From assembly GCF_011927695.1 (NCBI RefSeq), contig NZ_JAATJE010000001.1, positions 1,426,001 through 1,490,000 of the forward strand: DNA of 64,000 bases, in the 5' to 3' direction. This stretch comes from Sphingomonas jejuensis (GTDB taxonomy: Bacteria > Pseudomonadota > Alphaproteobacteria > Sphingomonadales > Sphingomonadaceae). Shown in pieces: positions 31,867-52,341 of the stretch; the first letter of the stretch is position 1; each line of letters starts with the position of its first letter. Under the pieces are notes generated by a model that searched no databases, was not told the DNA's origin, and saw nothing but the letters and a program-made list of their open reading frames with translations. The translations under genes and the position numbers were made by a program.

Positions 31867-33294
31867 GTGGCGCGCCAGCCCATCTTCGATGAAATGCGCG
31901 GCTTTCCCGGTGACGACCCGCGCCCGAGCTATGCGCGCGTCGATCGCTGGCTGAGCGAGACGGACGACGCGCTGCTGCAGACCCGGCGGGCGCAGGCGGA
32001 AGGCTTCTTCCGCCGCATCGGCATCACCTTTGCCGTCTACGGCGATGATCGTGCGGACGAACGGCTGATCCCGTTCGACATCGTGCCGCGCATCATTACC
32101 CGAACCGAATGGCAGCGGCTGGAGCGAGGGCTGATCCAGCGGGTGACGGCGCTGAACGCCTTCCTGGCCGACATCTACGGCAAGCGGGAGATCCTGGCGG
32201 CCGGCGTGATCCCGGAGGAGCTTGTGCTCCTCAACCCGCAATATCAGCTCGGGATGATCGGCTTCCGCCCGCCCGGCGGCGTGTACACGCACATCTCCGG
32301 CATCGACATCGTGCGCACGGGTCCCGACGACTTCTATGTCCTGGAGGACAACGTCCGAACGCCGTCTGGCGTCAGCTACATGCTCGAAAACCGCGAGGTC
32401 ATGTTCCGCCTGCACCCGGAGCTGTTCGCGCGCCACCGCGTCGCCCCGGTCGAGGATTATCCGGACCTGTTGGCCGACACGCTGCGATCGGTCGCGCCGG
32501 ACGGGCGGCAGCGCGCGCCCACCATCGCCGTGCTGACGCCGGGCTACCACAACTCCGCCTTCTACGAACACAGCTTCCTGGCCGACAAGATGGGCGTGGA
32601 GCTGGTGGAAGGCGACGACCTCTTCGTGCGCGACGACATCGTCTACATGCGCACGACTGCCGGACCGCGTCAGGTGGACGTGATCTACCGCCGGATCGAC
32701 GACGCCTTCATCGATCCCCTCGCCTTCCGGCCGGATTCAGTGCTGGGCGTGCCGGGCCTGATGAGCGCCTATCATGCCGGCAACGTCACGCTGGCGAACG
32801 CCGCCGGCACCGGCATCGCCGACGACAAGGCGGTCTACAGCTACCTGCCCGAGATCATCCGCTTCTACACCGGCGAGGATGCGCTGTTGCCAAACGTGCC
32901 GACCTATCGCTGCCGGGAACCGGATGCGCTTGCCTACACGCTCGACAACCTCGCCGACCTTGTCGTGAAGGAAGTCGACGGATCCGGCGGATATGGCATG
33001 CTCGTCGGGCCGCATGCGACCGCCGCGCAGATCGATGCCTTTGCCGGCAAGCTGCGGGCCGACCCTGCCAAGTTCATCGCGCAGCCGACGCTGGCGCTGT
33101 CCACCTGCCCGACGCTGGGCGACGACGGCATCGGCGCGCGGCACGTCGACCTTCGCCCTTATGTGCTGATGGGTGCGGACGGCATCACCGTGGTGCCCGG
33201 CGGCCTGACGCGCGTCGCGCTGACCGAAGGGTCGCTGGTCGTCAACTCGAGCCAGGGCGGCGGCACAAAGGACACATGGGTGATCGATGGTTGA
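31867..33294 (+). CDS. Circularly permuted type 2 ATP-grasp protein
   Basis: The 475-residue protein is of the CP_ATPgrasp group predicted to be an ATP-dependent amide (peptide) ligase. Seen segments are FDIVPRIITRTEWQRLERGL, VLEDNVRTPSGVSYMLENR, GVELVEGDDLFVRDD, NAAGTGIADDKAVYSYLPEI and LVVKEVDGSGGYGMLVGP, the last being the nucleotide-binding loop. The start is GTG immediately after the preceding stop. Neighbouring transglutaminases and the alpha-E gene are its regular partners. Confidence 0.9.
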   Translation: MARQPIFDEMRGFPGDDPRPSYARVDRWLSETDDALLQTRRAQAEGFFRRIGITFAVYGDDRADERLIPFDIVPRIITRTEWQRLERGLIQRVTALNAFLADIYGKREILAAGVIPEELVLLNPQYQLGMIGFRPPGGVYTHISGIDIVRTGPDDFYVLEDNVRTPSGVSYMLENREVMFRLHPELFARHRVAPVEDYPDLLADTLRSVAPDGRQRAPTIAVLTPGYHNSAFYEHSFLADKMGVELVEGDDLFVRDDIVYMRTTAGPRQVDVIYRRIDDAFIDPLAFRPDSVLGVPGLMSAYHAGNVTLANAAGTGIADDKAVYSYLPEIIRFYTGEDALLPNVPTYRCREPDALAYTLDNLADLVVKEVDGSGGYGMLVGPHATAAQIDAFAGKLRADPAKFIAQPTLALSTCPTLGDDGIGARHVDLRPYVLMGADGITVVPGGLTRVALTEGSLVVNSSQGGGTKDTWVIDG

Positions 33295-35127: not shown

Positions 35128-36036
35128 TCAGGCGGCGGCGCGCTGCTCCGGCCGGACATAGCGTTCCACCATCGCCTGGCAGAACTCCGCATATTCGTCG
35201 GCCACCTGCGGCGCGCTCGAATGGTGCGGCTGGATGCCGCGATGCTCCGGCGTGAAGCAGAAGGTGATCGTGGTGTCGAAGTCGGCCAGCGCTTCCATCT
35301 GGCGGTCGAACCAGTCGGTCGCGCCATCGCGAAAGCTGTCTGCCCAGCTGAGGCCGGTGCGCAGCTTGGTGACGCCCAGCTCCTTCAGCCAGCGCACCGC
35401 ATCGTCCAGCCGCGGATCATGATAATGGAACCACTGGCAGATGCCCATCTGCCCATCCAGGGCGCGGAACGCCTCCACCGCCGGCTTCGGGCTGCCGTCG
35501 GCGCGCAGCAGGCCCATGTGGAAGTGCCGGTAATAGGAGGATCCCTCCGCCTCCTTGTGGCGCGTGGTGGCGCCCCATTCCATCGGCAGATCGTAAAGGC
35601 TGTACCAGTGCACGCGCGGTGCCTGCCCCTTCAGCAGGCCGGCCGTCTTGGTGACGCCCCAGGCCTGCACCTCTTCGGAGCCGAAGGAGGACACGCCGAC
35701 CTCCGTTACCCACACCGGCTTGTCCGTGGCTGCGCGGATCTCGGCGATCTTGGCCGGCCACTCGTCGATCGCCCACAGGTTCCAGTCGAGTGGGAAGCCG
35801 TGCACCGCCACCGCATCCACCATGTCGAGCGCGCCTGCACGCTCAAGCCGCGCCAGGAAGGACGGATCGATCGGCGACATGCCGCCCAGGACACGCGTCA
35901 GCCCCGGTGCCGCCCGCCCGATCGCGGAGCCCGCGCGCCGCACCATGTCGGCGAACAGCAGCCATTCCGGGTCCACGTCCGGGTCCCAGTGCGACTTGTT
36001 GTTGGGCTCGTTCCAGATCTTGACGGCTTCGATCAT
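35128..36036 (-). CDS. Clan GH-A glycosidase-like protein with circularly permuted TIM barrel
   Basis: The 302-residue protein begins almost at the acid/base strand: VKIWNEPNN with Glu10. Strands 5-8 follow (VLGGMSPID, VDAVAVHGFPLDW, PVWVTEVGVSS with nucleophile Glu112, RVHWYSLYD). Only then come the segments that normally open such a barrel: RLDDAVRWLKELGVTKLRTG, DWFDRQMEALADFD, TTITFCFTPEHRG and ADEYAEFCQAMVERY, which in GH39/GH5 proteins directly precede the NEP strand. It looks like a circular permutant of a beta-xylosidase-type fold. No signal peptide, so cytoplasmic. ATG overlaps the upstream methyltransferase stop by four bases. Confidence 0.82.
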   Translation of the reverse strand: MIEAVKIWNEPNNKSHWDPDVDPEWLLFADMVRRAGSAIGRAAPGLTRVLGGMSPIDPSFLARLERAGALDMVDAVAVHGFPLDWNLWAIDEWPAKIAEIRAATDKPVWVTEVGVSSFGSEEVQAWGVTKTAGLLKGQAPRVHWYSLYDLPMEWGATTRHKEAEGSSYYRHFHMGLLRADGSPKPAVEAFRALDGQMGICQWFHYHDPRLDDAVRWLKELGVTKLRTGLSWADSFRDGATDWFDRQMEALADFDTTITFCFTPEHRGIQPHHSSAPQVADEYAEFCQAMVERYVRPEQRAAA

Positions 36037-36800
36037 CGCGTGGCGGTCTCCGGTGGCGATGCGGGATGGATGGGTTCGCCCGCGCCATAGGGGAGCGGCG
36101 CCGCCTTCGCCAGAAACACCTCCGTTTCGGGATGTGCGACGATCTCGAACCCTGCGGCGCGGAGCATGGCGGCGCTCGCCGCTTCGTTCGGTGCCCACCA
36201 GTTGGTCGGATCGCCGGAGTAGCGCTTCTCGATGAAATGCATCTTCGGATAGTCGGGCGCGTCGAAATGATCGGCGTCGAAGAAGTCATAGTCGTCGGCG
36301 ACGTTCGCCGCGCCCTTCGCGCCGCGTTGCATCGACTGGTACAGCATCAGGTCGTCGGCGACGTAGCTGCGGATCAGGTCGAGCGCGAGCAGCGGATGCC
36401 GCAGATGGTAGAGCACGCCCATGAAGATCACGAGGTCGAACCGCTCGCCCAGAAGCGCCAGGTCGTAGACCGACAGATTGCGATATTCGATGTCGAAGCC
36501 GCGGTGATCCGCCACGAACCGTGCCTGCGACAGATAGTGGTCGTCGCTGTCGATGCCGAGGACACGATCCGCCCCCCGCTTCTTCATTTCCACCGAATAG
36601 AAGCCGGCGTTGCACCCGATGTCGAGCACGCTCTTCCCGGTCAGATCCTCCGGCAGGACATGGGCGAAGCGCCTGAACTTGCTGTTGGGATAATCGTAGA
36701 GGAAGTGATCGGGCGCGGTCATCACGCCGCCCAGGTCCAGATTGTGGAACCAGGGGCCAAGCGCGCGCACGCGTTCTGCCAGATCCATGTCGTTGCTCAT
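36033..36800 (-). CDS. Class I SAM-dependent methyltransferase
   Basis: The 255-residue methyltransferase has motif I VLDIGCNAGFYSVEMKKRGA and acidic residues in GIDSDDHYL. FDLVIFMGVLYHLRHPLLALDLI resembles the CmoB/DUF1698-like group, and I recall a named subfamily (TIGR04290) with this pattern near sugar genes. AAGGTG lies before the ATG. It sits between glycosidase and phosphatase genes with four-base overlaps on both sides, so it probably methylates a sugar or cyclitol of the locus product rather than tRNA. Confidence 0.85.
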   Translation of the reverse strand: MSNDMDLAERVRALGPWFHNLDLGGVMTAPDHFLYDYPNSKFRRFAHVLPEDLTGKSVLDIGCNAGFYSVEMKKRGADRVLGIDSDDHYLSQARFVADHRGFDIEYRNLSVYDLALLGERFDLVIFMGVLYHLRHPLLALDLIRSYVADDLMLYQSMQRGAKGAANVADDYDFFDADHFDAPDYPKMHFIEKRYSGDPTNWWAPNEAASAAMLRAAGFEIVAHPETEVFLAKAAPLPYGAGEPIHPASPPETATR

Positions 36801-37366
36801 CGATCACCTTCGTTCAAGGACAGGAGCCGCGTGCGGCCGGGCTCGACCATGATCCGCGTGACGGAGCCACAGTCGACATCGAAACGCCACCAATCGTCCG
36901 CCGACAGGCCGAGGATGCGGCAGACAAAGGCGCGGATCACGTCACAGTGCGTCACCAGCACGGCCGCATGATGGCCCCCGATCTGTCGTAGCAGACCGTC
37001 CAGCCGGTCGGCCACCTCTGCAAATTTCTCGCCCCCCGGCGGGCGGGCGGACGCCCGGGCCGCGTTCCATCGCCGCCAGGCGGGATCGGGCGCAAGCTCA
37101 TCGAAGGACCGGCCCGACCAATCGCCGAAATCGATCTCGTCGAGCGCGGGGGCAATCGCCACCGCACGCCCGTCCGCGATCAGCGCCGCCGTCTCCCGCG
37201 TGCGCGCCCGCGGGCTCGTCCAGATCGGGCCCGCATCGTTCAGGCGGTCCGCGGCACGTCGTGCCTGGGCGCGACCGTTCTCGTCCAGCGACGGATCGAC
37301 GCTTCGACCGCACAAGATCTTGGCGACCAAAGATGTCGAACCATGTCTGACCAGATTAACCTGCAT
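36797..37366 (-). CDS. Histidine phosphatase family protein
   Basis: The 189-residue protein belongs to the phosphoglycerate mutase-like superfamily. RHG (residues 7-9) carries the phosphorylated His; TSPRARTRETA and VTHCDVIRAF supply the second Arg and His. Likely a small-molecule phosphatase, for example acting on a sugar or inositol phosphate in the pathway. First gene of the minus-strand unit; its 5' gap to the divergent epimerase operon is shared promoter space. Confidence 0.85.
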   Translation of the reverse strand: MQVNLVRHGSTSLVAKILCGRSVDPSLDENGRAQARRAADRLNDAGPIWTSPRARTRETAALIADGRAVAIAPALDEIDFGDWSGRSFDELAPDPAWRRWNAARASARPPGGEKFAEVADRLDGLLRQIGGHHAAVLVTHCDVIRAFVCRILGLSADDWWRFDVDCGSVTRIMVEPGRTRLLSLNEGDR

Positions 37367-37546: not shown

Positions 37547-38653
37547 ATGAATGATACGGTGCTGATCACCGGCGGCGCCGGTTTTATCGGTCGCGCGCTG
37601 GCGAACGAACTCGGGCAGCGTGGGCACCGGGTGCGTATCCTGGACGCCCTGATCGACCAGGTTCACGGCGCCGATCCCGTGCCGCCGCCCTTCCCGGAAG
37701 GGACCGTCTTCATCCGCGGCGACGTGCGCGACCGCGCGGCCGTTGAGGACGCGCTGACCGGTGCGACCGCCGTTGTGCACCTTGCCGCAGAGGTCGGTGT
37801 CGGTCAGTCGATGTACGCGATCGAGCGCTACACCAGTGTCAACGACACCGGCACCGCCGTGCTGTTCGAAGCCATGATCGACAAGCCGATCCGCCGCGTC
37901 GTCACCGCGTCGTCGATGAGCATCTATGGCGAGGGGCTTTACGAGGACGCGGACGGCAACCCGGTCCACGACGTGAAGCGGGATCGGGCAGCCGGCGGCA
38001 GCTGGGACCCGACGGACGATCAGGGCCGTTCGCTGCGCCCCGTGCCGACGCCGGAAAGCAAGCGCCCCGCCCTCGCCTCCGTCTACGCGATCGGGAAATA
38101 TGTGCAGGAGCGTCTGACGCTCACGCTGGCCGAGGCTTATGGCTATGAAGGCGTCGCGCTGAGGCTGTGGAACGTCTACGGCCCCGGCCAGGCGCTTTCC
38201 AACCCGTACACCGGCGTGCTTGCCATCTTCGCGTCGCGGATCGCGAATGGTCAGAGCCCGATGATCTTCGAGGATGGGGAGCAGCGCCGCGATTTCGTGC
38301 ACGTGCGCGATGTCGCCCGCGCCTTCGCCGACGCGCTGGAAATGCCCGGCATCTCGGGCAAGGTGTTCAACATCGCCAGCGGCACCGATCGCAGCGTCAG
38401 CGACGTGGCGACCGCGCTTGCCCGCGCGATGGGGTCCGACCTCACCGCGCGCGTGACGGGTGAAGGGCGCACGGGCGACATCCGCCACTGCATCGCCGAC
38501 ATCTCCGCCGCACGGAGCGCGATCGGGTTCGAGGCGCGCGAGGATTTCGATGCCGGCTTGGCCGAGCTGGCCGAATGGGTGGCGCAGCAGGAGGCGCAGG
38601 ACCGGGTCGATGCCGCGCGTGACGAGCTGAAGGCCCGGGGCCTGGTGTCGTGA
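37547..38653 (+). CDS. NAD-dependent sugar epimerase/dehydratase
   Basis: The 368-residue extended SDR has TGGAGFIG close to the start, the active-site segment SSMSIYGEG and YAIGKYVQE (Tyr-x3-Lys), then LRLWNVYGPGQALSNPYTG and RRDFVHVRDVARAF. The pattern is nearest to nucleotide-sugar 4-epimerases such as dTDP-rhamnose 4-epimerase-like proteins; substrate not decided. It starts the eight-gene operon and overlaps the next gene by four bases (GTGA). Confidence 0.88.
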   Translation: MNDTVLITGGAGFIGRALANELGQRGHRVRILDALIDQVHGADPVPPPFPEGTVFIRGDVRDRAAVEDALTGATAVVHLAAEVGVGQSMYAIERYTSVNDTGTAVLFEAMIDKPIRRVVTASSMSIYGEGLYEDADGNPVHDVKRDRAAGGSWDPTDDQGRSLRPVPTPESKRPALASVYAIGKYVQERLTLTLAEAYGYEGVALRLWNVYGPGQALSNPYTGVLAIFASRIANGQSPMIFEDGEQRRDFVHVRDVARAFADALEMPGISGKVFNIASGTDRSVSDVATALARAMGSDLTARVTGEGRTGDIRHCIADISAARSAIGFEAREDFDAGLAELAEWVAQQEAQDRVDAARDELKARGLVS

Positions 38654-39705
38654 GCGCCGGGCGCCCCCTTCTCGTCACCGGCGGCGCAGGCTTCATCGGC
38701 TCCAACCTCGCCGACCGGCTGGCCCGCGACGGTCGCGACGTCATCGTCTACGACGCGATGCTGCGGTCCGGTGTCGAGGCGAACGCCCGCTGGCTGGCCG
38801 ATCGCCACCCCGATCGCATCCGCATCACCCAGGCCGATCTGCGCGACACCGACCGGTTGAAGGCAGCGGTGGCGGAGGCGGGTGCGGTGTTCCACCTCGC
38901 TGCGCAGGTGGCGGTCACCACCAGCCTGGTCGATCCCGTCGAGGACTTTCAGGTCAACCTGGCGTCGACCTTCGCCCTGCTGGAGGCAGCGCGGGCGGAG
39001 GCCACGCCGGTGCCGGTGATCTTCGCCAGCACCAACAAGGTGTATGGCGACCTCGCCGACGTCGAGCTCGAGGCCGATGCGGAGCGCTGGTCGCCCGTCG
39101 ATCCGGGCATCGCGCGGTCGGGCGTGGACGAGAACCGCCCGCTCGACTTCCACACGCCCTATGGCTGCTCCAAGGGCGCGGCCGACCAGTATGTGCTCGA
39201 CTATGGCCGCAGCTACGGTGTGCCGTCCTGCGTGTTCCGGATGAGCTGCATCTACGGTCCGCGCCAGATGGGCAACGAGGAGCAGGGCTGGGTCGCGCAC
39301 TTCCTTCGCGAAGCGATCGCCAGGCGCCCGATCACGCTGTTCGGCGACGGCAAGCAGGTGCGCGACGTGATGCATGTCGACAATGCGGTCGCCGCCTATG
39401 TGTCCGCGCTGTCGCGGATCGAAGGCATCAAGGGCCGCGCGTTCAACCTGGGCGGCGGGCGCGCCAATGCGGTCAGCCTGCGCCAGGTGATCGACGAAAT
39501 CGGCCGTCTGGTTGGGCAAGCGCCGGAGATCCGGTTCGATGGCTGGCGGCAGGGCGACCAGCGCTGGTTCGTCGCCGATGCCCGCCGTGCCCGGCTGGCG
39601 CTCGACCTGCCGCAGCCGATGGACTGGCGACAGGGGCTTGCCGACCTTCACCGCTGGCTCGGCTCGCTGGATGCCGATGCGGGCCGCGTGGAGGTCGCCG
39701 CTTGA
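38650..39705 (+). CDS. NAD-dependent epimerase, CDP-paratose 2-epimerase-like
   Basis: The 351-residue extended SDR has TGGAGFIGS (10-18), FASTNKVYGDL, YGCSKGAADQYVLDY with the catalytic Tyr and Lys, and FRMSCIYGPRQMGNEEQGW, which strongly recalls the CDP-paratose/CDP-tyvelose 2-epimerase branch. The product is probably a modified nucleotide sugar for the glycosyltransferases downstream. GTG start and a TTGA overlap with the next gene. Confidence 0.85.
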   Translation: MSAGRPLLVTGGAGFIGSNLADRLARDGRDVIVYDAMLRSGVEANARWLADRHPDRIRITQADLRDTDRLKAAVAEAGAVFHLAAQVAVTTSLVDPVEDFQVNLASTFALLEAARAEATPVPVIFASTNKVYGDLADVELEADAERWSPVDPGIARSGVDENRPLDFHTPYGCSKGAADQYVLDYGRSYGVPSCVFRMSCIYGPRQMGNEEQGWVAHFLREAIARRPITLFGDGKQVRDVMHVDNAVAAYVSALSRIEGIKGRAFNLGGGRANAVSLRQVIDEIGRLVGQAPEIRFDGWRQGDQRWFVADARRARLALDLPQPMDWRQGLADLHRWLGSLDADAGRVEVAA

Positions 39706-40814
39706 GCCTGGCCCGTCCGGTGCTGCGTGTGGTGATGACGGCGGATGCGGTCGGCGGGGTGTGGAGCTACGCGCTCGACCTTGCGGCCGGCCTGCGCGCT
39801 CATGGCACGGAGGTGCTGATCGCCGTGGCCGGGCCGGCGCCCTGCACGGATCAACAGTCAGCGGCGGAGCAGGCGGGCATCGCCCTGGTCACGCTGCCCG
39901 GGCCGCTCGATTGGCTCGACGCCACGCCGGCCACGCTGGAGCGCCAGGCTGCCGCCCTGGAGCGGATCGCGCGCGGCTGGAAGGCCGACCTCATCCAGCT
40001 GAACAGTCCGATTCTGGCGGCCTTCGGCACGTTCGACCGGCCGGTGCTCGGCATCTGCCATTCCGATCTGGCGACCTGGTGGTCGGCAGTGCGCGGCGAC
40101 ACGCCGCCGGCTGATTTCCGATGGCGGATCGACCTCACCGCGCGCGGATATCGGGCGTGCGACATGCTGGTCGCGCCGACCCACGCCTTTGCCGCCGCCA
40201 CCGGCGATGCTTACGGCATCCGGCCGCAGGTCGTGCTGAACGGACGCACGGCGCGCCGGTCACTTTCGGTCGCGCGGCGCCCGGGTTCGATCCTTGCCGC
40301 CGGGCGGCTGTGGGATGCGGGCAAGGGCATGGCCGTGCTCGATGCCGCGGCCGCCAGCATGTCGGCGCCGGTCGCGGCTGCCGGCCCGGTGAAGGGCCCG
40401 GGCGGCGACGGCGTGGTGCTGTCCCATGTGCAGGCGCTCGGCCGGCTCGCCGGGGACGATCTTGCCGCCCGCATGGCCGAAACCGACATCTTCGTGTCCC
40501 CGGCGCTCTACGAGCCGTTCGGCCTCGCCGTGCTTGAGTCCGCGCAGTGCGGTGCCGCGCTGGTGCTGTCGGGGATCGAGGGGCACCGCGAGTTGTGGAT
40601 GGATGCGGCGCTGTTCGTGCCGCCGGGCGACGCCGCTGCGCTGGCAGAGGCGCTCGACGCCCTCGCCGCCGATCCGGCCGAGGCGCGTGCGCTCGGGCAG
40701 CGAGCGCAGGCGCGCGCGGCCCGCTATTCGGCCGACCGGATGTCGGCGGGCATGGACGCGATCCAGCGACGGATGCTGTCCGCAGCCGCGCCGCGACTGG
40801 CGGTGGGCGCATGA
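39702..40814 (+). CDS. Glycosyltransferase family 4
   Basis: The 370-residue GT-B glycosyltransferase has an N-terminal acceptor domain (TADAVGGVWSYALDLAAGLRAHG) and a C-terminal donor domain with SPALYEPFGLAVLESAQCGAALV, the E-x7-E motif of retaining GT4 enzymes. Start is TTG within a four-base overlap. No membrane segment, so it acts on the cytoplasmic side. Donor and acceptor unknown. Confidence 0.88.
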   Translation: MSLARPVLRVVMTADAVGGVWSYALDLAAGLRAHGTEVLIAVAGPAPCTDQQSAAEQAGIALVTLPGPLDWLDATPATLERQAAALERIARGWKADLIQLNSPILAAFGTFDRPVLGICHSDLATWWSAVRGDTPPADFRWRIDLTARGYRACDMLVAPTHAFAAATGDAYGIRPQVVLNGRTARRSLSVARRPGSILAAGRLWDAGKGMAVLDAAAASMSAPVAAAGPVKGPGGDGVVLSHVQALGRLAGDDLAARMAETDIFVSPALYEPFGLAVLESAQCGAALVLSGIEGHRELWMDAALFVPPGDAAALAEALDALAADPAEARALGQRAQARAARYSADRMSAGMDAIQRRMLSAAAPRLAVGA

Positions 40815-41926
40815 GGATCCGTTACTTCACGCATTCGCTCCGCTCCTGTTGGAACCATGGCAACGCGCATTTTCTGCGCGGGCTGCTCGCCGACCTGCAG
40901 CGGCGCGGCCATGATGTCGCCGCGATTGAGCCGGCGGACAACTGGAGCCTCGCCAACCTCGCCGCCGATGCCGGCCCGGAAGGTCAGGCGGCTTTCCGCG
41001 CCGCCTATCCCGACCTCGGCACCGCCACCTATGATGTCCGGTCCTTCGACGCCGACCAAGCGATAGACGGCGCCGACCTCGTGATCGTGCACGAATGGAC
41101 CGACCCGGCGGTCGTCGCCGCCATCGGCGCGGCGCGGCGGCGGGGCGGCCGGTTCCAGCTGTTCTTCCACGACACGCATCACCGCGCGGTGAGCGATCCG
41201 GACGCGATCCGCGCGTTCGACCTCGACGGATATGACGCGGTGCTCGCCTTCGGTGAAACGCTGTCGGAGGTCTATCGCCGCTGGGGCTGGGGCGACCGGG
41301 TGTTCACCTGGCACGAAGCGGCCGACACGTTCCTGTTCCGCCCGCCGCTGGCCGATGTGGCGCGCGACGGCACCATCTGGATCGGCAACTGGGGCGATGG
41401 GGAGCGCACGGCCGAGCTCGAGGAGTTCCTGCTGGCCCCGACTCGGGACGTCGGCATCCCGCTCGACATCCACGGCGTGCGCTATCCCGCAGAAGCGCTG
41501 CTGCTGCTCGATCGGTATGACGCCCGGTATCGCGGCTGGATCGCGAATGCGGCGGCACCGGCGGCCTATGCCCGCCACCTTCTGACCGTGCATGTGCCGC
41601 GCCGCTTCTACACGCAGCTGCTGCCGGGCATCCCCACCATCCGCGTGTTCGAGGCCTTGGCCTGCGGCATCCCGCTCGTCTCCGCGCCGTGGGATGACGC
41701 CGAAGGGCTGTTCCGCCCCGGCGATTATCTGAAGGCGACGGACGGGGACGCGATGCGCGGCCACCTGCGCGACCTCGTCGCCGACCCAGCGCTCGCCGCC
41801 GATCTCGCCCGGCGTGGGCGGGAGACGATCGAGGCGCGTCACAGCTGCGCCCACCGTGCCGACGAGCTGCTCGCCATCTCGCGCCAGATCGACGCCACCC
41901 GTTCGACGAAGAGGACCGCGGCGTGA
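40811..41926 (+). CDS. CgeB-like glycosyltransferase (first of three)
   Basis: The 371-residue protein is of the CgeB/glycosyltransferase-1-like group, GT-B fold. YFTHSLRSCWNHGNAHFLRGLLADLQRRGHDV opens the first domain, DGTIWIGNWGDGERTAEL begins the second, and PTIRVFEALACGIPLVSAPWDDAEGLF is the donor-binding box. It shares the box with the two following genes but differs elsewhere, indicating old duplication with separate acceptors. ATGA overlap upstream, GTGA overlap downstream. Confidence 0.85.
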   Translation: MRIRYFTHSLRSCWNHGNAHFLRGLLADLQRRGHDVAAIEPADNWSLANLAADAGPEGQAAFRAAYPDLGTATYDVRSFDADQAIDGADLVIVHEWTDPAVVAAIGAARRRGGRFQLFFHDTHHRAVSDPDAIRAFDLDGYDAVLAFGETLSEVYRRWGWGDRVFTWHEAADTFLFRPPLADVARDGTIWIGNWGDGERTAELEEFLLAPTRDVGIPLDIHGVRYPAEALLLLDRYDARYRGWIANAAAPAAYARHLLTVHVPRRFYTQLLPGIPTIRVFEALACGIPLVSAPWDDAEGLFRPGDYLKATDGDAMRGHLRDLVADPALAADLARRGRETIEARHSCAHRADELLAISRQIDATRSTKRTAA

Positions 41927-43011
41927 GGATCGCCTTTTACGGATCGAGCCTGCTGTCCGCCTATTGGAACGGCGCGGCCACCTATTATCGCGGCATCCTG
42001 AGCGCGCTCGCCGCGCACGGCCACGATGTGGCGTTCTACGAGCCGGACGCATTCGACCGGCAGCAGAACCGCGACATCGATCCACCCGAATGGGCGCGGG
42101 TCGTCGTCTACGACGCCACGCCATCGGCACTGGCCGCGGTGATCGAGGAAGCCGCACGCGCGGACGTCGTGGTGAAGGCAAGCGGGGTCGGCGTGTTCGA
42201 CACCGAGCTGCTTGCCGTGTGGGATCACGCGCCCGACCACGCGCTTCGCATCTTCTGGGACGTCGATGCGCCCGCCACGCTGGCGGAGCTTGCGGCGGAC
42301 CCGGGTCATCCGCTCCGCCGCCGCCTCCCCTCGCTCGACCATGTGCTGACCTATGGCGGGGGGCCGCCGGTCGTGTCGCAGTACGAGGCGATGGGCGCAC
42401 GCTCGTGCATCCCGATCTACAACGGGCTGGATCCCGCCACCCACCACCCGGCCGTTGCAGATGCCCGCTTTGCGGTCGACCTCGGCTTCCTCGCCAATCG
42501 CCTGCCCGACCGGGAAGCGCGCGTGGACGAGTTCTTCCTGCGCCCGGCGGCGCTCTTGCCCGAACGCCGCTTCGGCATCGGCGGGTCTGGCTGGCACGAC
42601 AAGGCGATGCCGGCAAACGTCACCCGCGTCGGCCATGTCGGCACGGCGGACCACAACGCGTTCAACTGTTCGGCGCTCGCCGTCCTCAACGTGGCGCGCG
42701 AGGACATGGCCGCGCTCGGCTTCTCTCCGGCGACCCGCGTGTTCGAGGCCGCCGGCGCGGGCGCGTGCCTGATCAGCGATGCGTGGGAAGGCATCGATCA
42801 GTTCCTGGCGCCCTACACGGAGATCCTGGTGGCGCGTGACGGGCAGGACGTCGCCGACCATCTGGCCGCGCTGACGCCGGAGCGCGCGCGGGCCATCGGA
42901 GACGCGGCGCGCGCCCGCGTGCTCCGCGACCATTGCTACAGCGACCGTGCGGTCACCGTCGACGCGCTGTTCCGCGAGGGGCTGGCGATCAAGCGGGCGC
43001 GCGCGGCATGA
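41923..43011 (+). CDS. CgeB-like glycosyltransferase (second of three)
   Basis: The 362-residue GT-B protein starts with GTG. IAFYGSSLLSAYWNGAATYYRGILSALAAHGHDVAFYEPD begins the first domain; VDLGFLANRLPDREARVDEFFLRPA and SPATRVFEAAGAGACLISDAWEGIDQFL mark the second. Close in layout to the third copy. Four-base overlaps at both ends make it part of a translationally coupled series. Confidence 0.85.
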   Translation: MRIAFYGSSLLSAYWNGAATYYRGILSALAAHGHDVAFYEPDAFDRQQNRDIDPPEWARVVVYDATPSALAAVIEEAARADVVVKASGVGVFDTELLAVWDHAPDHALRIFWDVDAPATLAELAADPGHPLRRRLPSLDHVLTYGGGPPVVSQYEAMGARSCIPIYNGLDPATHHPAVADARFAVDLGFLANRLPDREARVDEFFLRPAALLPERRFGIGGSGWHDKAMPANVTRVGHVGTADHNAFNCSALAVLNVAREDMAALGFSPATRVFEAAGAGACLISDAWEGIDQFLAPYTEILVARDGQDVADHLAALTPERARAIGDAARARVLRDHCYSDRAVTVDALFREGLAIKRARAA

Positions 43012-44093
43012 AGCTGGTGGTGATCGGCCTCAGCCTGTCCTCGTCCTGGGGAAACGGGCATGCGACCACCTGGCGTGCGCTGCTTCAAGCCTTTGCCGCG
43101 CGCGGGCATGATGTGGTGTTCCTGGAACGGGACGTGCCCTGGTATTCGGGCGCGAACCGCGATCTGGCCGATCCGGATTTCTGCCGCCTCGCCTTTTATC
43201 AGAGCCTCGACGATCTGGAGCGGTTTCGGGACGAGGTGAGCGGAGCGGACGCGGTGATCGTCGGCTCCTATGTGCCGGACGGCATCGAAGTCGGCCGCCT
43301 GGCGCAGCAATGGGCGGCAGGAGCCGTCAGCTTCTACGATATCGACACGCCCATCACGCTGGCTGCGCTTGATCGCGGCGATTGCGCCTATCTGTCGCGC
43401 GATCAGGTGCCCGGATATGCCAACTACTTCTCCTTTTCCGGCGGACCGACGCTGCAGCGGATCGAGGAGCAGTTCGGCTCCCCCAACGCGGCTGCGCTTT
43501 ATTGTTCGGTCGACACCGACAGCTACCGTCCCGTGGACGTGCCGAGCCGCTGGGATCTCGGCTATCTCGGCACCTACAGCCCGGATCGGCAGCCGACGCT
43601 CGATGCGCTCCTGATCGAACCTGCCCGCGCCGCGCCGGAGCTGCGGTTCGTCGTGGCGGGGCCGCAATACCCCGACGACATCGACTGGCCCGAAAATGTC
43701 GAACGCATCGACCATCTGGCGCCGGCCGATCATCCCGAATTCTACTCGTCATGCCGGTTCCAGCTGAACGTGACCCGTGCCGACATGATCGCCGCCGGCT
43801 ACAGTCCCAGCGTCCGGTTGTTCGAAGCCGCGGCCTGCGGGGCGGCGCTTCTGTCCGACCGCTGGCTCGGCCTCGACACGCTGCTTGCCACGGACGACGA
43901 AATCATCCTGCCGGACGACGGTGCTGCGGTGCTCGACCTGTTGAGGACCATGCCGGAGGAGCGGCGACACGCGCTTGGTGCGGCTGCGCGCCGCCGCATC
44001 CTCGCCGAACACACCGCCGCCCATCGTGCCGAAAGCCTGGAACAGGCGCTCGTCACGGCGGGACCGGCAACGCGGAACAGCAGGGCCGCATGA
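43008..44093 (+). CDS. CgeB-like glycosyltransferase (third of three)
   Basis: The 361-residue GT-B protein has LSSSWGNGHATTWRALLQAFAARGHDVVFLERD in the first domain, DLGYLGTYSPDRQPTLDALL at the domain boundary and SPSVRLFEAAACGAALLSDRWLGLDTLL in the donor site. SFYDIDTPITLAAL and the SGGPTL segment parallel copy two. ATGA overlap upstream and downstream. Likely adds a further residue to the same glycan. Confidence 0.85.
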   Translation: MKLVVIGLSLSSSWGNGHATTWRALLQAFAARGHDVVFLERDVPWYSGANRDLADPDFCRLAFYQSLDDLERFRDEVSGADAVIVGSYVPDGIEVGRLAQQWAAGAVSFYDIDTPITLAALDRGDCAYLSRDQVPGYANYFSFSGGPTLQRIEEQFGSPNAAALYCSVDTDSYRPVDVPSRWDLGYLGTYSPDRQPTLDALLIEPARAAPELRFVVAGPQYPDDIDWPENVERIDHLAPADHPEFYSSCRFQLNVTRADMIAAGYSPSVRLFEAAACGAALLSDRWLGLDTLLATDDEIILPDDGAAVLDLLRTMPEERRHALGAAARRRILAEHTAAHRAESLEQALVTAGPATRNSRAA

Positions 44094-45112
44094 GCAAGAC
44101 GATTGGAGACGGATCGATGACGGGTGGCGGCAAGCGGGTACTGGTGGCCGGGGGCGCCGGCTTCATCGGGTCGCACCTGACGGAAGCGCTGCTGGCCGAG
44201 GGGTGTGAGGTGGTCGTTCTCGACAATCTCCAGACCGGCTCCATGGACAATCTGCGAACGGCAATCGGCCATCCGCGATGCACGTTCGTGGAGGCCGACA
44301 TCGTGCAGCCGCTGCCGTCATCGCTCTCCGCCGGGCGGTTCGACGAGATCTACAATCTGGCCTGCGCCGCCTCTCCGCCGGCCTATCAGGCGGACCCCGA
44401 ACACACGATGATGACCAGCGTGGTCGGCACCGCGCACCTGCTGCGCCTGGCCGCGCGAACAGGCGCACGTTTCCTGCTGACCTCCACCAGCGAGATCTAC
44501 GGCGACCCGGAAGTCCATCCGCAGCACGAGGATTACCGCGGCAACGTCAATCCGATCGGCCCGCGTGCCTGCTATGACGAAGGCAAGCGCGCGGCCGAGA
44601 CGCTGGCGTTCGATTATGACCGGGCCGGGCGGGCGACCGTACGCGTGGCGCGCATCTTCAACACCTATGGCCCGCGCCTGTCGCCGGACGACGGCCGGGT
44701 CGTGTCCAACTTCGTCGCGCAGGCGCTCTCGGGCGCGTCCATCACCGTATATGGCGATGGTTCGCAGACGCGGTCCTTCTGTTATGTGAGTGACATGGTG
44801 ACAGGCCTTCTGACGTTGATGCGGCATGACGGGCCGCAACCCGGCCCCATCAACCTCGGCAACCCGCGCGAGCTTCGCATCCTCGACCTGGTGGAGGAGA
44901 TCGGCCGCATCGTGCCCAGCACCGCGCCGGTGGTCGGGCGTCCGCTCCCGATCGACGATCCGCGCCGCCGCCGCCCGGACATCGCCAAGGCCAAGCAGAT
45001 CCTGGGCTGGGAGCCCCGTGTCTCGCTGGAGGAAGGCTTGCGGCAGACGGTTGCCTGGTTCTCCGCCCGGCCCGCGGCGGCAGCCATGCCGCGCCTGGCG
45101 GTGGCATCATGA
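44090..45112 (+). CDS. UDP-glucuronate decarboxylase (UDP-xylose synthase)
   Basis: The 340-residue extended SDR is of the UXS type, converting UDP-glucuronate to UDP-xylose. GGAGFIGSHL (21-30), YNLACAASPPAYQADPEHTM, TSTSEIYGDP, the catalytic YDEGKRAAETL and RIFNTYGPRLSPDDGRVVSNF are diagnostic. Another ATG at 44117 is possible. It supplies a pentose donor for the glycosyltransferases upstream in the same operon and overlaps the inositol synthase start by four bases. Confidence 0.92.
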   Translation: MSKTIGDGSMTGGGKRVLVAGGAGFIGSHLTEALLAEGCEVVVLDNLQTGSMDNLRTAIGHPRCTFVEADIVQPLPSSLSAGRFDEIYNLACAASPPAYQADPEHTMMTSVVGTAHLLRLAARTGARFLLTSTSEIYGDPEVHPQHEDYRGNVNPIGPRACYDEGKRAAETLAFDYDRAGRATVRVARIFNTYGPRLSPDDGRVVSNFVAQALSGASITVYGDGSQTRSFCYVSDMVTGLLTLMRHDGPQPGPINLGNPRELRILDLVEEIGRIVPSTAPVVGRPLPIDDPRRRRPDIAKAKQILGWEPRVSLEEGLRQTVAWFSARPAAAAMPRLAVAS

Positions 45113-46209
45113 GCGCATCCACCATCGATGTCGGGATCGTCGGGATCGGCAACTGCGCCAGTTCTCTGGTGCAGGGCCTGACCTATTACGGCGAGGATCT
45201 CGCGAACGAGCCGATCGGCCTCGGTCATGTCGAAATGGGCGGATGGCGCGCCGAACAGATCCGCGTGGTGTCCGCCTGGGACGTCGACACCCGCAAGGTC
45301 GGGCGCGACGTGGCGGACGCCATCTTCGCGGCACCCAACTGCACCGCCCGCTTCGCCGATCATGTACCGGCGACCGGCACCGCCGTGGAGATGGGCGCCG
45401 TCCTTGATGGATGGTCCGACCATATGGCGACGGCACCCGTCGACCGCCGCTTCGACGTCGCCGACCTGCCGCAGCCGAGCGCCGACGATGTCGTCCGCAC
45501 GCTGGAGACCACCGGCACGGAAGTGCTGATCAATTACCTGCCTGTCGGCAGCCAGCGCGCGACCGAGTTCTACGCGGAGGCCGCACTCCGCGCCGGTACC
45601 GCGTTCGTCAACGCCATGCCGGTCTTCATCGCCAGCGATCCGGCCTGGGCCGGTCGCTTCCGCGATGCCGGCGTGCCGATCATCGGCGACGACATCAAGG
45701 CGCAGCTTGGCGCCACTGTCGTTCACCGCGTACTGACCGACATCTTTGCCAAGCGCGGCGTTGCGCTCGACCGGACCTATCAGCTGAACACCGGCGGCAA
45801 CACCGACTTCCTCAACATGCTCAACCGCGATCGGCTGGCGTCGAAAAAGCTGTCGAAGACGGAAGCGGTGCAGTCGGTCGCGCATCAGCGTCTGGATGCG
45901 GAGAACATCCACATCGGCCCGTCGGACTACGTCCCGTGGCAGAACGACAACAAGATCGCCTATCTGCGGATGGAAGGGCGCCTGTTCGGCGGCGTGCCGA
46001 TGAACCTGGAACTGCGCCTGTCGGTGGAAGACAGCCCCAACAGCGCCGGCGTGGCCATCGACATGATCCGCGCGGCCCGCATCGCGCGCGATCGCGGTCT
46101 CGGCGGCCCCGTGCTCGCGCCGGCTGCCGCCTTCTGCAAGCATCCGCCTGAGCAGATGTCCGACAGCGATGCGCATGCTGCGCTGGAGCGCTTCATCGCC
46201 GGCGCATAG
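45109..46209 (+). CDS. ino1: Inositol-3-phosphate synthase
   Basis: The 366-residue enzyme makes 1D-myo-inositol 3-phosphate from glucose-6-phosphate with NAD. It has GIGNCASSL (12-20), NYLPVGSQRATEFYAEAAL, DDIKAQLGATVVHR, LNTGGNTDFLNM and SKKLSKTEAVQS, as in the short prokaryotic synthases (about 360 residues). Last gene of the eight-gene operon; a strong hairpin follows. Its place here implies that inositol or inositol phosphate is part of, or the acceptor for, the glycoconjugate. Confidence 0.93.
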   Translation: MSASTIDVGIVGIGNCASSLVQGLTYYGEDLANEPIGLGHVEMGGWRAEQIRVVSAWDVDTRKVGRDVADAIFAAPNCTARFADHVPATGTAVEMGAVLDGWSDHMATAPVDRRFDVADLPQPSADDVVRTLETTGTEVLINYLPVGSQRATEFYAEAALRAGTAFVNAMPVFIASDPAWAGRFRDAGVPIIGDDIKAQLGATVVHRVLTDIFAKRGVALDRTYQLNTGGNTDFLNMLNRDRLASKKLSKTEAVQSVAHQRLDAENIHIGPSDYVPWQNDNKIAYLRMEGRLFGGVPMNLELRLSVEDSPNSAGVAIDMIRAARIARDRGLGGPVLAPAAAFCKHPPEQMSDSDAHAALERFIAGA

Positions 46210-52005: not shown

Positions 52006-52341
52006 CGTGGAACTCTCACCCTGTGCGTCGCGCCCGGCGCGACAGCATTGAACCGGAACGTCTCGTCAGCCGCGACAGCGGCCTACGGTAAGTCGCCACA
52101 TTCGGCGTACCGGCATCGCCGGCATCGGGTGGATGGGTTTGGTCACGCACGATCCTCTACACCAACATGCGGGCTTCGTCGCCCGGCTTCTGTCTTTGCC
52201 AAACGAAAGCCCTGCTTTCCCGTTCCGGCACGCGCTTGCATCGGCGGGGGGCCGATGCTAACCGGCCGGCACCTGACGCGGGGTGCCCCAAGGGCGCCCC
52301 TTTCTCGCGTCATCATGACCTGTCTGGAGGACATTGGGCGC
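52006..52341. promoter_or_regulatory. Upstream region of the atp operon
   Basis: The gap contains a perfect hairpin GCATCGGC/GCCGATGC around GGGGG (52238-52258) and a GC-rich palindromic stretch GGGGTGCCCC near 52280. The operon promoter must lie here; TTGCAT at 52237 could be a -35 element, but no clear -10 follows. An upstream in-frame ATG at 52315 is not favoured as the atpH start. Confidence 0.45.

Follow-up and report, generated by a model that had tools for sequence, protein, structure and literature searches.

Sequence and model evidence for a natural circular permutant of a GH39/PslG-like glycosidase barrel in a conserved gene cluster of Sphingomonas jejuensis

Background

Among glycosidases, a barrel that is circularly permuted by nature is known from the GH70 glucansucrases, when these are compared with GH13. 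Such a rearrangement usually comes about when a gene is duplicated in tandem and then trimmed at either end. To our knowledge, only a small number of (beta/alpha)8 enzymes are natural permutants, and both their origin and their functional effect are still open. Within clan GH-A no natural circular permutation was found in the literature searched, whose coverage leaves out most subscription papers; the same search, with the same restriction, returned no mention of TIGR04290 or TIGR04295. The solved protein that comes closest to the one studied here is PslG, a GH39 endoglycosidase of the Psl cluster (PDB 4zn2, 5bx9 and 9g17), in which Glu165 acts as acid/base and Glu276 as nucleophile (PMC11912335).

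We analysed a stretch of 64,000 nucleotides from Sphingomonas jejuensis (contig NZ_JAATJE010000001.1, positions 1,426,001 to 1,490,000), hereafter called the window. A first-pass annotation, made from the letters alone, had proposed that one of its genes encodes a glycosidase-like protein whose barrel starts at strand 4, as would result from circular permutation. The gene, the parts of its product and the neighbouring genes are listed in Table 1.

Table 1. Features of the permuted glycosidase gene and its surroundings. Positions are those of the window, except in the last line, which gives loci in other genomes.
Feature	Position	Strand	Remarks
Permuted glycosidase gene, whole	35128..36036	-	302 aa and stop; ORF read from 36036 down to 35128
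Residues 1-191, predicted barrel strands 4-8 with helices (old C-terminal part)	35464..36036	-	Ordinary-homolog profile 112-295; PslG 156-356, rmsd 2.2 A
Codon of E10, predicted acid/base, strand 4 (WNEPN)	36007..36009	-	Invariant 96/96; aligns with PslG Glu165
Codon of E112, predicted nucleophile, strand 7 (TEVG)	35701..35703	-	Invariant 96/96; aligns with PslG Glu276
Residues 192-197, predicted new junction, linking the old C-terminus behind helix 8 with the old N-terminus ahead of strand 1	35446..35463	-	Rotation-score peak, cuts 184-197
Residues 198-295, predicted barrel strands 1-3 with helices (old N-terminal part)	35152..35445	-	Ordinary-homolog profile 7-109; PslG chain positions 25-130
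Residues 296-302, C-terminal tail after helix 3	35131..35151	-	Variable length, low model confidence
TIGR04290 methyltransferase	36033..36800	-	Upstream in operon; 361.8 bits against cut-off 300; stop overlaps glycosidase start by 4 bp
Histidine phosphatase (branch 1)	36797..37366	-	First gene of minus-strand operon
NAD-dependent epimerase/dehydratase Epi1	37547..38653	+	Divergent
NAD-dependent epimerase/dehydratase Epi2	38650..39705	+	Counterpart fused to ordinary-order glycosidase in other genomes
Four glycosyltransferases	39702..44093	+	GTa 39702-40814, GTb about 40829-41926, GTc 41923-43011, GTd 43008-44093
Third NAD-dependent epimerase/dehydratase Epi3	44120..45112	+	Start approximate
Inositol-3-phosphate synthase	45109..46209	+	PF01658; TIGR03450 433 bits, under its cut-off 638
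Microvirga loci with EcfG-type motif	L027, L030-L034, L037, L038, L040, L045, L047, L049, L051, L056, L062, L075		

Results

The protein starts with MIEAVKIWNEPN and ends with MVERYVRPEQRAAA, and its gene is present as a single copy in the genome. Permuted relatives were taken from the best 80 of 476 confirmed stretches, with 113 collected in all from public genomes; the 113 sampled are 62-79% identical to the window protein. Each of them has a start codon at the common residue 1 (ATG in 79, GTG in 32 and TTG in 2). At 56 of the 74 loci with a TIGR04290 methyltransferase gene, the stop of this gene overlaps the glycosidase start by 4 bp (ATGA), and at 7 of the 74 the overlap measures 8 bp. Together, the common start and the overlap indicate that no hidden upstream part carries strands 1-3. 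A chance ORF is excluded by the hundreds of relatives, the common start and the conserved motif residues. The motifs on which the initial proposal was based are indeed found: WNEPN occupies residues 8-12, close to the N-terminus, and RLDDAVRWLKELGV, KLRTGLSWADS, TTITFCFTPEHRG and EYAEFCQAMVERY all lie downstream of WNEPN and TEVG in the chain. The TEVG nucleophile strand is present too, though at residues 111-114 and not at 110.

Seven homologs with the ordinary strand order (L090 and L109-L114) were found in other Alphaproteobacteria. They are approximately 31-37% identical to the window protein in the best-matching part, and in them the glycosidase domain is N-terminal, with an NAD-dependent epimerase following in the same fusion protein (roughly 650-700 aa). 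In one uninterrupted ORF, these homologs have the equivalent of query residues ~197-295 first and that of ~5-186 second. A rotation scan of the window protein (BLOSUM62) against six ordinary-order sequences, five of them intact and the sixth the decayed fused copy L117, scores best when the cut lies within residues 184-197. For the five intact homologs the rotation gains 77-103 score units over the native order, against at most 25 when C-terminal tails are shuffled (300 shuffles); L117, with a gain of 7, is uninformative here. Thus the alignment check suggested at the outset, on a rotated or duplicated copy of the protein, comes out in favour of the permutation.

Profile comparisons give the same picture. 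When a profile built from the ordinary homologs only is run against the permuted genomes, its match breaks into two segments of exchanged order; for the genome of the window these are model positions 115-296 (E 3.7e-33), followed by 8-114 (E 8.8e-13). In native order, hhalign likewise yields two swapped matches (3-188 to 112-295 and 195-295 to 7-109). After rotation at 192 they merge into a single match of 278 columns with E 1.2e-42, as anticipated by the claim that joining the C-terminus to the N-terminus restores a canonical barrel order, whereas rotation at 60, 120, 240 or 270 splits the match again. Two properties expected of a circular permutant are hence met: both parts of the chain match one homolog in swapped order, and an end-to-end alignment is obtained for the rotated sequence but not for other rotations. 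Among sequence matches of the permuted-family profile PslG comes out best (E 2.9e-6); as a single sequence the window protein reaches E 0.95. Aligned with solved PslG, the profile again falls into two pieces, 3-152 to 132-300 (E 0.00079) and 200-295 to 25-130, the second being weak by itself.

An AlphaFold2 model of the window family, based on an alignment of 96 sequences, has a pLDDT of 89.3 and a pTM of 0.89. Its predicted strands are located at residues 2-7, 47-53, 75-80, 108-113, 142-145, 198-200, 224-230 and 254-260, the last long helix at 279-293 and a low-confidence loop at 155-167. In a sequential structural alignment with PslG only residues 1-195 are matched, to PslG 156-356 (rmsd 2.2 A, 175 aligned, 24% identity, Z 12.1). 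The model of the ordinary homolog L109 (pLDDT 84.1, pTM 0.87), for which the alignment also included PslG-like rows, matches PslG over the whole length (4-302 to 39-356, Z 25.1, 277 aligned); PslG is ranked first in both lists of matches, with a Foldseek E of 4e-15. From the models and this contrast in PslG matches we infer that helix 279-293 is helix 3 and that the chain opens with strand 4, as the first-pass annotation had it. A further property of a circular permutant, the same three-dimensional fold with relocated ends, is met for predicted models only, and without a permutation-aware superposition of coordinates. In the structural search with the permuted model, the top and whole-model matches are unrelated barrels in shifted register (Z up to 13.8); these were rejected as relatives, being an effect of the internal symmetry of the barrel. 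Overall, the comparisons and predicted models support the view that the window protein arose by natural circular permutation of a GH39/PslG-like barrel of clan GH-A, with strands 4-8 preceding strands 1-3.

No ready-made family describes the protein: NCBIfam and PHROGs have none, and Pfam offers only a marginal match to PF11790 (Glyco_hydro_cc; 21.3 bits against a cut-off of 21, over only about 60 residues). Two permuted relatives score 20.4 and 13.7 bits against this cut-off, and the ordinary homologs have no match to PF11790. Rotation of the single window sequence raises the score from 21.3 to 22.4 bits only, since PF11790 is remote; a profile made from the homologs themselves was required for the rotation test. 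Permuted proteins are named beta-xylosidase, glycosyl hydrolase or hypothetical protein in databases, while the ordinary-order fusions go only by NAD-dependent epimerase or SDR oxidoreductase. The earlier statement that the family lacks a description consequently holds for the permutation, of which no account within clan GH-A was found, but not for annotation as such, given the database names beta-xylosidase and glycosyl hydrolase. Of the two comparison folds named initially, GH39 and GH5, it is GH39 that contains the closest solved relative.

Residues W8, N9, E10, P11, N12 and E112 show no exception in 96 aligned permuted sequences, and H79, W144, Y145, R226 and W231 are equally invariant (96/96). 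The offset between chain index and residue number in PslG is 26, equal for both glutamates. Spacing between the catalytic glutamates amounts to 102 residues in the permuted form and 107 in the ordinary-order homologs. In clan GH-A the (beta/alpha)8 barrel has its acid/base Glu, preceded by Asn, where strand 4 ends, and its nucleophile Glu where strand 7 ends; the protein appears to possess all of these features. As for the PslG branch of GH39, similarity to characterised members is there, whereas the ordinary strand order is not.

The surrounding genes are conserved as well. Among 80 permuted loci the methyltransferase is encountered at 74, inositol-phosphate synthase at 67, the phosphatase at 59, Epi1 at 55 and Epi2 at 35; flanks of 6 kb were fetched for these counts, so the cluster is cut off. 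Ordinary-order clusters comprise Epi1, the GH-Epi2 fusion, GTa, GTb, GTc, GTd and Epi3, mostly the methyltransferase and usually a TIGR04295-like radical SAM gene. In a survey of about 370 sampled Alphaproteobacteria, TIGR04290 scored above its cut-off in 16 genomes, 14 of which contain one of the layouts (8 permuted, 6 ordinary only); the two without either are incomplete assemblies (82-83% complete). Conversely, all 14 genomes in this sample with either layout carry the TIGR04290 methyltransferase. Both layouts thus seem to serve one oligosaccharide-type cluster, and judging from their co-occurrence the permuted free-standing and the ordinary epimerase-fused forms seem to fill the same pathway slot. 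That their function is equal is inferred from context, as the two are only ~31-37% identical. The literature searched yielded no paper on the product, which is probably an inositol-containing or related oligosaccharide.

Two genomes, G484 and G619, contain both layouts, so replacement of one by the other is not strict. The fused copy of G484 is cut by a contig end and has an intact nucleophile motif. In G619 the fused ordinary copy (L117:1177-1935; L178) lacks the catalytic glutamates and stands beside an intact permuted enzyme (L177). Outside the Alphaproteobacteria, the permuted gene and its cluster occur in Ramlibacter (Betaproteobacteria, L052) with 73% identity to that of the window, suggesting transfer between classes. 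In Sinorhizobium medicae (L183) the permuted gene directly follows the phosphatase, without a methyltransferase in between.

A few other features of the region were recorded. At 39702-39705 the window is without the TIGR04295-like B12-binding radical SAM gene that several other clusters have between Epi2 and the first glycosyltransferase. Beside the cluster, at 31867-33294, lies a circularly permuted ATP-grasp protein (PF14403), a known and unrelated kind of permutation, accompanied by an Alpha-E protein and two transglutaminase-like proteins. Exact EcfG-type promoter motifs of the general stress response (GGAAC-N16/17-CGTT) are present at all 16 Microvirga loci in which the Epi1 and inositol-phosphate synthase genes diverge, in the spacer between the two and mostly on both strands, against an overall density of 0.04 per kb in the loci. 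None was seen at the 27 loci of other genera with this divergent arrangement. No exact stress-sigma promoter site was found near the window cluster; one exact EcfG-type motif is located at 52202-52226 of the window, on the minus strand.

Discussion

According to the sequence comparisons and the predicted structure, a short linker (about residues 192-197) connects the old ends, and the chain has been opened anew just before strand 4. In the mechanism that we propose, the barrel would close as usual, so that E10 on strand 4 and E112 on strand 7 come together. With both glutamates united in a closed barrel, retaining beta-glycosidase or transglycosidase chemistry is most likely; this is deduced from the conserved residues and from PslG, and activity and substrate are themselves inferred. 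Given the conserved cluster, the enzyme would most likely be cytoplasmic and trim or transfer a sugar on an oligosaccharide intermediate, which the neighbouring glycosyltransferases, epimerases, inositol-phosphate synthase and TIGR04290 methyltransferase would produce. A cytoplasmic location is most likely because the protein has no signal-peptide-like start and its ordinary counterpart is fused to an NAD-dependent epimerase. Depending on the genome, either the permuted or the ordinary form would occupy the one slot in this pathway.

Could the apparent permutation stem from a wrongly placed start, with a normal GH-A barrel having its strands 1-3 upstream and the C-terminal segments as an added domain? 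The frame is open upstream as far as a GTG at 36198, but that stretch falls inside the methyltransferase gene (36033-36800), the start at residue 1 is common to every relative, and in alignments the C-terminal third has its counterpart in the first third of the ordinary homologs and of PslG. Neither of the two findings that would have refuted the initial proposal, a far-upstream start with normal strands 1-3 or a model with beta-1 as first strand and an added C-terminal domain, is present, and with the methyltransferase overlap and the common start we regard this reading as ruled out for all practical purposes. The direction of the rearrangement is less settled. All PslG-like outgroup proteins have the ordinary order, from which we infer that the permuted order is derived within the superfamily; tandem duplication followed by trimming is assumed as its origin. 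A second NEP motif occurs in no permuted protein, nor was a tandem-duplicated intermediate seen in the gene neighbourhoods. The ordinary fused form might instead have arisen within the permuted family by a second rearrangement, or have come from a separate GH39 lineage. Indeed, in one tree the ordinary clade is nested among the permuted sequences, where its branch is very long. That nesting, however, has the look of a long-branch effect: once long rows are removed, the permuted set makes up one side of a branch, albeit weakly supported (64/52), and the order in the outgroup also argues against a second rearrangement. We consider such a course improbable without dismissing it; whether the permuted sequences form a single clade is unresolved, as the trees disagree.

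If the permutation is accepted, the protein could still be devoid of glycosidase activity, whether as a pseudoenzyme, as a binding protein or as a scaffold for the cluster. The fused copy of G619, having lost both catalytic glutamates, implies that a non-catalytic barrel can persist in this family. Across 96 permuted proteins, however, E10, E112, N9 and the strand-2 arginine are invariant, and loss of activity in the window protein seems unlikely to us. Similarly doubtful is an action outside the cytoplasm, on a finished polysaccharide and not on a biosynthetic intermediate. It would agree with the fact that PslG, the closest solved relative, belongs to a polysaccharide cluster (PMC11912335), but strand 4 of the window protein begins as early as residue 2, so that a signal peptide could not be accommodated, the maximum 19-residue hydropathy is 0.94, and the ordinary form is attached to an NAD-dependent epimerase. 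Taken together, we are fairly confident in the account of a GH39/PslG-like permutant that acts as a retaining glycosidase or transglycosidase in the cytoplasm and shares one slot with the ordinary form, even though it rests on a predicted structure and on inferences as to activity, substrate and location, without experimental support.

Conclusions

The permuted enzyme is carried by hundreds of genomes; in others a cluster of this kind includes the ordinary enzyme, and a few genomes possess both. The automatic names (beta-xylosidase, hypothetical protein, epimerase) concealed that the two layouts are apparently the same enzyme. As a matched pair, they are suited for testing how well a barrel tolerates new ends beside a catalytic strand. 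We think it somewhat probable that this is the first natural permutation described in clan GH-A, in a pathway that uses either an epimerase-fused ordinary or a free permuted barrel, the permuted form having spread through many Alphaproteobacteria and Ramlibacter and standing in one genome beside a decayed fused copy.

Among known systems, a close counterpart is the ordinary-order GH-epimerase fusion, which is homologous to the window protein over the whole length after rotation and has the same cluster partners; it differs in having strands 1-8 in order within an N-terminal fusion domain, whereas the window protein is free-standing. PslG, the best structural match of the ordinary homolog, shares the aligned acid/base and nucleophile glutamates and, like the window protein, is encoded in a glycan cluster. 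Unlike the window protein, it is larger and has the ordinary strand order, so that it is matched in two swapped pieces, with ~24% identity in strands 4-8. The GH70 enzymes are alike in that a catalytic glycosidase barrel is circularly permuted relative to its relatives in GH13. They belong, however, to clan GH-H, act on alpha-glycans and have another breakpoint, whereas the window protein belongs to clan GH-A, where the two layouts share one kind of gene cluster.
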